This document shows, piece after piece, positions 11,184 to 38,628 of a stretch of DNA of 38,628 nucleotides. The DNA is from Nitrospirota bacterium. GTDB taxonomy: Bacteria > Nitrospirota > Nitrospiria > Nitrospirales > NS-4. The stretch is taken from the NCBI GenBank assembly GCA_005877615.1, contig VBOD01000114.1:1-38628 (forward strand), read 5' to 3'. The translations under genes and the position numbers were made by a program. The notes under the pieces are model-generated. The model did no database searches. It had not been told where the DNA came from and saw only the letters and a program-made list of their open reading frames with translations. Positions within the stretch are counted from its first letter, which is position 1; each line of letters opens with the position of its first letter.

Positions 11184-11271
11184 CGTTAATCGTTATCCGT
11201 TATACGTTAAACGTGGCATTTGCATCTTTCTTCGTGCTTACCATTTAACGATTAGCGTTTAACGTTGCACG
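11184..11271. repeat. Intergenic convergent heptamer arrays between rpsK and rpsD
   Basis: + strand CGTTAAT|CGTTATC|CGTTATA|CGTTAAA|CGT (11184-11214), 29 nt core, then inverted TTTAACG|ATTAGCG|TTTAACG|TTGCACG (11244-11271). Confidence 0.85.
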
Positions 11272-37192: not shown

Positions 37193-37723
37193 TTATAATC
37201 GCTCGACTTGCAAGAACCCCAGCTCCACCGGAGTGCCTCGACCGAAGATGCTCACCAAGACCTTGAGCCGATTGCGCTCCTGATCCACGTCATCCACCAT
37301 CCCATTGAACCCGAGGAACGGTCCGTCGATGATGCGAACGTTGTCCCCTTTGTGAAATTCCTCCTTCTGGCGGGGCACCGCGGTCCCGCTATCGATTTGC
37401 TTGAGGAGCGTGTCGACCTCCTCCTGCGCTAAGGGGACGGGTTGCGAGCCCCCGCCCACAAAGCCGGTGACCTTGGGGGTCTCCTTGATCATCTGCCAGG
37501 ACTCGTTCGACATATCCATCTCGACCAGAACGTACCCCGGGAAAAACTTCCGAGTCGAGGTGCGTTTCTTTCCCTCCTTGATCTCGATCACGTCTTCGGT
37601 CGGCACCAGCACTTGCCCAATCTTGTCCTGCAGACCCATTTGGCTCGCGCGTTCTAAAATGCTGTCCTTGACACGTCCTTCGAAGCCTGCGTATGTGTGG
37701 ACGACGTACCAGTTCTTGCCCAT
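37193..37723 (-). CDS. nusG: Transcription termination/antitermination protein NusG
   Basis: MGKNWYVVHTYAGFEGRVKDSILERA...FFPGYVLVEMDM...; KOW FHKGDNVRIIDGPFLGFNGMVDDVD; conserved start at 37723. Confidence 0.98.
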   Translation of the reverse strand: MGKNWYVVHTYAGFEGRVKDSILERASQMGLQDKIGQVLVPTEDVIEIKEGKKRTSTRKFFPGYVLVEMDMSNESWQMIKETPKVTGFVGGGSQPVPLAQEEVDTLLKQIDSGTAVPRQKEEFHKGDNVRIIDGPFLGFNGMVDDVDQERNRLKVLVSIFGRGTPVELGFLQVERL

Positions 37724-37737
37724 GATGCCGTTCTCGC

Positions 37738-37932
37738 TCAAAGTATCTTCACGATCAGTAGACTGATCACAATATCGGCCAACCGTAAAAAGAGCGACAC
37801 GATGAACACCAAGATGATCACGACCGTCGTGGACCCGATCGTTTCGCTCCGGCTCGGGTAAGAGATCTTCCTCAGCTCCGAACGGACATCGTTGAAAAAC
37901 TCTACGAGAGCAGCCCACATCCGTGTGAACAT
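37738..37932 (-). CDS. secE: Preprotein translocase subunit SecE
   Basis: MFTRMWAALVEFFNDVRSELRKISYPSRSETIGSTTVVIILVFIVSLFLRLADIVISLLIVKIL; located between tRNA-Trp and nusG. Confidence 0.93.
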   Translation of the reverse strand: MFTRMWAALVEFFNDVRSELRKISYPSRSETIGSTTVVIILVFIVSLFLRLADIVISLLIVKIL

Positions 37933-38060
37933 TTGGTCCCGTGCACTCCCTGTAATGTGTACCCCTGCGGCATTGGCTCTCCCACGCCCCCCTTCACGAT
38001 CACTTGAGGTGTCGAACACGCGGCCCATTGGATCGAGCGCCGGTTCGACCAAGCTGGGTG

Positions 38061-38137
38061 TGGCAGGGGCACTAGGAATTGAACCCAGACCTTCGGTTTT
38101 GGAGACCGACGTGCTAACCGTTGAACACCATGCCCCT
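38061..38137 (-). tRNA. trnW: tRNA-Trp (CCA anticodon), CCA end encoded
   Basis: Minus strand AGGGGCATGGTGTTCAACGGTTAGCACGTCGGTCTCCAAAACCGAAGGTCTGGGTTCAATTCCTAGTGCCCCTGCCA folds as a cloverleaf; anticodon loop CTCCAAA; position upstream of secE is common. Confidence 0.95.
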
Positions 38138-38144
38138 TCACAGA

Positions 38145-38231
38145 CGTTAAACGTTAATCGTGAAACTCTAAACGCGAGCGGCCTGCGCTACGCTGTCTTC
38201 CCGATTAACGAATAACGGTTAACGATTAACG
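38145..38231. repeat. Intergenic convergent heptamer arrays between rpmG and tRNA-Trp
   Basis: + strand CGTTAAA|CGTTAAT|CGTGAAA|CTCTAAA (38145-38172), GC-rich core, then ATTAACG|AATAACG|GTTAACG|ATTAACG (38204-38231) abutting the rpmG stop. Confidence 0.87.
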
Positions 38232-38381
38232 TCACTTCACTTCCTTGTGTGGAGTGTGCTTGCGGCAAAACCGACAATACTTGCGACGCTCCAGCCGCTC
38301 CGGATCGTTCTTTTTGTTCTTCATCGTGGAATAGTTACGCCGCTTGCAGTCGGTACACGCCAATGAAATGATCTCTCGCAT
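38232..38381 (-). CDS. rpmG: 50S ribosomal protein L33 (zinc-ribbon form)
   Basis: Manual translation [49 protein letters not shown] (49 aa). Confidence 0.97.
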
Positions 38382-38399
38382 CTTAAGTCCCCTAACCTC

Positions 38400-38440
38400 T
38401 ATCAGCTCTCAGCTCAAGGGCTGAACGCTGACGGCTGATC
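38400..38440. repeat. Intergenic convergent heptamer array/hairpin between tuf copy 2 and rpmG
   Basis: + strand TATCAGC|TCTCAGC|TCAAGG|GCTGAAC|GCTGACG|GCTGATC. Confidence 0.8.
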
Positions 38441-38446
38441 GCTCCC

Positions 38447-38628
38447 TTACGCCAGGATGTCGGTGACGATGCCGGAGCCGACGGTCTTGCCCCCTTCGCG
38501 GATCGCAAAGCGCAGCCCCTGGTCCATCGCGATCGGCGAGATCAACTCCGCCGTGATCGCCACGTTGTCCCCCGGCATCACCATCTCCACCCCCGCCGGC
38601 AACGCCACCACCCCCGTCACGTCCGTCG
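38447..38628 (-). CDS. tuf: Elongation factor Tu (copy 2), 3' end only; runs off the right edge
   Basis: 182 bp read as identical to 24323-24504 of tuf copy 1, including the stop codon. Confidence 0.96.

Follow-up and report, generated by a model that had tools for sequence, protein, structure and literature searches.

The stretch we analysed (the window) is a contig of 38,628 nucleotides, C126, from a Nitrospirota genome (G000) of 1.82 Mb that is about 90% complete and broken into 131 contigs. At 38145-38231 a short element separates two essential genes, rpmG and the gene for tRNA-Trp (Table 1). The preliminary description had parsed it as four heptads, a core and four inverted heptads, and this parsing is correct to the base. 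The plus-strand letters of array 2 are ATTAACG AATAACG GTTAACG ATTAACG. The element begins immediately behind the rpmG stop codon and leaves exactly 7 nt before the tRNA; both statements had been made before and both are confirmed by the gene positions. The inversion of the arms needs a qualification. The heptads are indeed convergent, but the arms are not exact inverted copies: about 5 to 6 of 7 positions pair, and the last base is usually mismatched. The earlier description of the twin at 11184-11271, with its core unrelated to that of the first element, holds as well; this twin lies at the rpsK-rpsD junction. A further inverted heptad element, built from the word GCTGANN, occupies the tuf-rpmG junction. 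It is absent from that junction in the sister species G002 and G003, and more GCTGANN arrays are found on contigs C26 and C129.

Table 1. Heptad elements and neighbouring genes, in window coordinates
Feature	Position	Strand	Remarks
Array 1, four degenerate CGTTAAN heptads	38145..38172	+	CGTTAAA CGTTAAT CGTGAAA CTCTAAA; 3' arm in the rpmG transcript
Core, 31 nt	38173..38203	.	CGCGAGCGGCCTGCGCTACGCTGTCTTCCCG; unrelated to the twin's core
Array 2, inverted	38204..38231	-	minus-strand reading CGTTAAT CGTTAAC CGTTATT CGTTAAT
rpmG (ribosomal protein L33)	38232..38381	-	translation, 49 residues; stop TGA 38232-38234 abuts the array
tRNA-Trp (CCA)	38061..38137	-	ARAGORN; 7 nt from the element, downstream in transcription direction
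Second inverted heptad element, word GCTGANN	38401..38443	.	tuf-rpmG junction
Twin array 1	11184..11211	+	CGTTAAT CGTTATC CGTTATA CGTTAAA
Twin core	11212..11243	.	rpsK-rpsD junction
Twin array 2, inverted	11244..11271	-	minus-strand reading CGTGCAA CGTTAAA CGCTAAT CGTTAAA; 3 nt after the rpsK stop

Chance similarity between AT-rich sequences, which the preliminary description had kept in mind, can be dismissed. With up to two mismatches, CGTTAANCGTTAANCG matches 11 times in the window, always inside one of the two elements, where shuffles lead us to expect 0.06 matches. A scan for lags of 4 to 15 that does not use the word at all confines the lag-7 runs of the window to 38145-38231 and 11184-11271. 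The elements are not alone either. The exact two-heptad pattern has 16 matches in the whole genome (the reversed control has none), and with mismatches there are about 22 places, 16 of which an automatic parser recognises as two-sided. Hence the expectation that other copies exist holds, with about 20 in this genome and with variation between species: the three sister species (G001-G003) have 20, 47 and 38 exact matches, again with none for the reversed control. The genus is represented by four genomes, each a fragmented metagenome-assembled genome (MAG) in which repeats break contigs, and our genome-wide comparisons were made on the stretches around the copies. Most other relatives do not have the exact CGTTAAN pattern, and a few from another family do. 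Among named genomes the two-sided form is found in Belliella, Algoriphagus, Bacteroidales, Chthoniobacter, Opitutia, a Gemmatimonadetes MAG and Pseudidiomarina.

The anatomy is similar across copies. Our parser found 82 two-sided elements in five genomes, and 75 were kept after cleaning. Three to five degenerate heptads flank a core, with four heptads being the commonest arm length on both sides (36 and 29 of 75). Positions 1 to 5 of the heptad (CGTTA) are nearly fixed, which is partly a product of how the arrays were found; position 6 holds A or T, and all bases occur at position 7, G only rarely. The innermost heptad leans towards CGTGAAG and its inverse. The cores range from 3 to more than 40 nt and are mostly unrelated between copies. 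In this genus the units also follow a rule. Adjacent heptads within an arm are identical in only 24 of 427 cases (60 ± 6.6 expected). Opposite heptads of equal rank pair at position 7 in 27.8% of cases; shuffled partners give 42%, and every one of 1000 shuffles lay above the observed value. Short-read assembly copes badly with long perfect repeats, however, and some identical or perfectly paired arrays could have been dropped from the MAGs. In other phyla the same word behaves in the opposite way, with 7 different and 28 identical neighbours compared to 91 different and 21 identical in this genus. The avoidance of identity and of pairing at the last base argues against simple slippage as well as against selection for a perfect hairpin.

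The position of the elements relative to genes is far from even. Among 92 classifiable elements, 64 lie between co-directional genes, 16 between convergent genes and 12 between nominally divergent genes. When the reading frames of these 12 were inspected, only one was clearly divergent (L166) and one was unclear (L197, beside a tRNA). If 10-15% of all junctions were divergent, a background share that is assumed, the probability of two or fewer among 92 would be 0.004 to 0.00005; gene calls are rough, and most of the nominally divergent ones were wrong. The gap between the upstream stop codon and the element is mostly 0-20 nt. Copy number and placement thus fit the REP-like reading that had been offered as one possibility. 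The other possibility, that the element releases tRNA-Trp from the transcript, is not supported as a general role, since a tRNA gene adjoins only 7 of 56 locus groups and most groups lie between protein genes.

A comparison of orthologous junctions shows what is kept and what is not. The element at 38145-38231 is present in two sister species, and across the three species its arms are 96% identical (53-55 of 56 positions), while species pairs have 23-27 of 31 core positions in common (74-87%). As a yardstick, fourfold sites of nusG are 77-83% identical. The high identity of the arms could reflect a function and would then speak against a merely tolerated repeat. This argument uses only 38145-38231, a site that was located through its genes; conservation of heptads among orthologues in general was set aside as proof of selection because the arrays were found via that very word. 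At several junctions every sister species has the element, as though it were favoured at these places, which again counts against tolerance.

At other junctions the cores are exchanged or deleted and the arms persist, which agrees with the earlier proposal that the arrays rather than the core are the conserved unit. Two loci (L067 and L211) have the same left arm, CGTTATT CGTTAAT CGTTAAA CGTTGAA; one has a core of 27 nt and the other a GC-rich palindrome of 90 nt. At folP-glmM, the three left heptads of G002 are identical to those of G003, and the core of G002 is GTAGGGGC..GCCCCTAC. This palindrome is itself dispersed over many sites, mostly without heptads, and in G001-G003 about ten loci have the GTAGGGGC composite with unvarying inner junctions. 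Cores also appear to be inverted while the arms stay in place: at rpsK-rpsD, the core ends in G000 and G001 resemble the reverse complement of the core in G002 and G003, which suggests an inversion between the arms. Elements can also be lost or lacking. The more distant relatives G004 and G007 have an 11-nt spacer at rpsK-rpsD, G005-G007 have short spacers, and one junction in G003 retains a collapsed remnant. At another junction, in G001, an 8-nt period array (CGTTCCGT-like; L268:173-221) takes the place of the CGTTAAN element of the sister species. The junction between rpmG and tRNA-Trp is either empty in other genera or filled with different heptads (CGTGATN, GTGCTGA), namely convergent arrays of the CGTGATG type in G063 and of the GTGCTGA type in G067.

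Other palindromes are seen in and around these elements. The perfect palindrome GTAGGGGCACGGCGCGCCGTGCCCCTAC is dispersed in G001-G003 (for example at L183:5446, 6200, 7582 and 12810 and at L177:1487), with about 40 copies in G002. It mostly stands alone, but at about ten loci it forms the core between CGTTAAN arms, always with the same inner junctions. GC-rich palindromes CACCCCCACCC...GGGTGGGGG form cores within heptad arms at L211:1502-1640 (G001) and at L255 (G003). At the rpsK-rpsD junction of G001 (L148), a GC-rich hairpin GGCCCCG...CGGGGCC replaces the outer heptads of one arm beside rpsK.

On balance, we think that the element at 38145-38231, which is one of the dispersed copies of an imperfect, non-coding inverted repeat, is probably tolerated, REP-like and renewed by recombination. 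What we observed, and what this reading is built on, is the copy number, the anatomy of arms and cores, the operon junctions near stop codons, the loss or absence in relatives, the exchange of cores and the words specific to lineages. Such an element would spread and renew itself through recombination. The arms would serve as patches of homology and as hairpin-forming ends, through which cores could be exchanged, lost, turned round or entered by other palindromic repeats. Selection would then leave the element where it does the least harm, that is, downstream of a stop codon and ahead of the following ribosome-binding site. Once transcribed, it would form an interrupted hairpin, and effects on mRNA decay or on the processing of tRNA-Trp would be a by-product that is not specific to any gene. 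As neither a mobilising protein nor a target-site duplication was identified, we infer spread from the pattern of the copies.

One could also argue that the hairpin itself is selected at operon junctions. Stem blocks of 5-6 bp, separated by regular mismatches, would protect the upstream mRNA (or here the tRNA-Trp 5' leader) or determine where it is processed, and thanks to the mismatches the operon transcript would escape destruction by RNase III. In favour of this are the location of the elements in co-directional operons, after the stop codon of one gene and before the following gene, the conserved arms at 38145-38231, the renewed occupation of the same junctions in distant genera and a stem that is interrupted beyond chance at position 7. 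However, the RNA of the element has only a modest advantage over shuffled sequences in folding into its interrupted hairpin (z = -2.2), and a search for covariation was negative: there are no complementary changes between the arms, rather the reverse. The 5' and 3' arms do not differ significantly relative to transcription, the flanking genes are of many kinds, and close relatives manage without the element. No Rfam family scores above its gathering threshold at the site except the tRNA. We therefore regard a selected hairpin, the main rival, as unlikely. There is no intrinsic terminator (a GC-rich stem followed by a run of T) at 37700-38628 and no sigma-70 promoter-like site at the element. 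A stop-codon cassette, in which the 7-nt period would place stops in all frames, was rejected because only 7 of 37 5' arms stop all three.

It is less likely still that the arrays are binding sites at the level of the DNA, where a putative protein would read one heptad per unit and organise the chromosome or control read-through. The nearly fixed positions 1 to 5 next to variable positions 6 and 7 would suit such a protein, and identical successive words are avoided as if several related but different sites were needed. Yet the constancy of the first five positions is partly built into the detection of the arrays, different genera use different words at one and the same junction, and CGTTAAN sites are missing from most relatives in the order.

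We consider it very improbable that the elements are classical MITEs or REPINs moved by a RAYT or another transposase. Copies are dispersed and intergenic and have inverted ends, and the GTAGGGGC composite recurs with the same inner junctions. But the RAYT that had been suggested as a mobiliser was not found here: there is no match to the Y1_Tnp domain in this genome (about 90% complete) or in G001, and there are single matches in G002 (weak) and G003. Furthermore, most copies share neither a core nor fixed ends, and the compared empty sites show no clear target-site duplication. Finally, a heptanucleotide microsatellite grown by slippage (with a polymerase footprint setting the period and template switching producing the inverted pairs) would explain why loci fetched by their NusG or RpsD proteins contain nine runs at lag 7, with more than one word, and no run at lags 5, 6 or 8-12, and why the same word forms identical tandem copies in other phyla, but slippage, another of the earlier suggestions, is hardly credible in this genus because duplication would give an excess of identical neighbours, and both neighbours and opposite arms show the reverse of what duplication or the copying of palindromes would leave.

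An excess of seven-base repeats in bacterial genomes has been noted without being explained, and the case studied best was linked to G-quadruplexes. The cyanobacterial STRR heptanucleotides are tandem 7-nt units dispersed between genes; these differ from CGTTAAN elements in being direct tandem arrays of different words. The likeness to REP sequences and BIMEs lies in short imperfect palindromes that occur in many copies shortly downstream of stop codons, in intergenic DNA that is transcribed. However, REPs and BIMEs keep a fixed palindrome and often come with a RAYT, whereas the elements described here keep the heptad word and have no RAYT in this genome. A common fixed palindrome of the REP or REPIN kind is not seen, as cores are unrelated between copies and often between orthologues.

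The closest likeness is to the GGGAATC heptads of Xanthomonas campestris and X. axonopodis, whose convergent arrays have been interpreted via G-quadruplexes and form 70-75 close convergent pairs per genome, most commonly with four units (PMC4692102). Both systems consist of degenerate 7-nt units, mostly four, in close convergent pairs; both are intergenic, lie between aligned ORFs near a stop codon and are rare between divergent ones; and in both, related species share junctions while length and sequence vary (PMC4692102). Neither strand of CGTTAAN contains a run of G, in contrast to GGGAATC, which makes the proposed G-quadruplex impossible. In the CGTTAAN elements, moreover, cores are swapped for other palindromes and identical neighbours are avoided. 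The TAACTGA repeats of Beggiatoaceae and cyanobacteria are also intergenic heptads, with 2-6 units, a patchy distribution across phyla and a presence in ribosomal-protein operons, but they use another word and form direct arrays close upstream of start codons that are almost never inverted (PMC4679880); CGTTAAN arrays are inverted pairs after stops. A literature search that covered few subscription papers found no description of CGTTAAN arrays or of arrays in Nitrospirota. Hence, the anatomy is of a known but unexplained kind reported from Xanthomonas, and the CGTTAAN word, free of G-tracts, is a new variation on it. The element at 38145-38231 looks like a tolerated, self-renewing repeat of that kind and not like a device that releases the neighbouring tRNA.

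Because the same anatomy occurs without G-tracts, G-quadruplexes cannot be the general reason for convergent heptad arrays. It is a tentative and rather doubtful generalisation that these arrays form a bacterial intergenic class with words specific to lineages (such as CGTTAAN, CGTGANN, GCTGANN and GGGAATC), and that a putative dedicated activity makes or maintains them, proceeding in steps of 7 nt and, in some lineages, enforcing diversity among the units. If it were true, the G-quadruplex account would be a special case. The opposite neighbour rules (identity elsewhere, difference here), together with different lineage words at one junction, make the origin of the arrays testable by comparing strains. 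Triplets of CGTGANN occur in 47 of 98 relatives, with up to 89 per genome and no control matches in most. At rpmG-tRNA-Trp and tuf-rpmG, G063 (L133:2551-2770) and G067 (L137) carry inverted arrays of CGTGATG, CGTGAAG/CGTAAGG and GTGCTGA.
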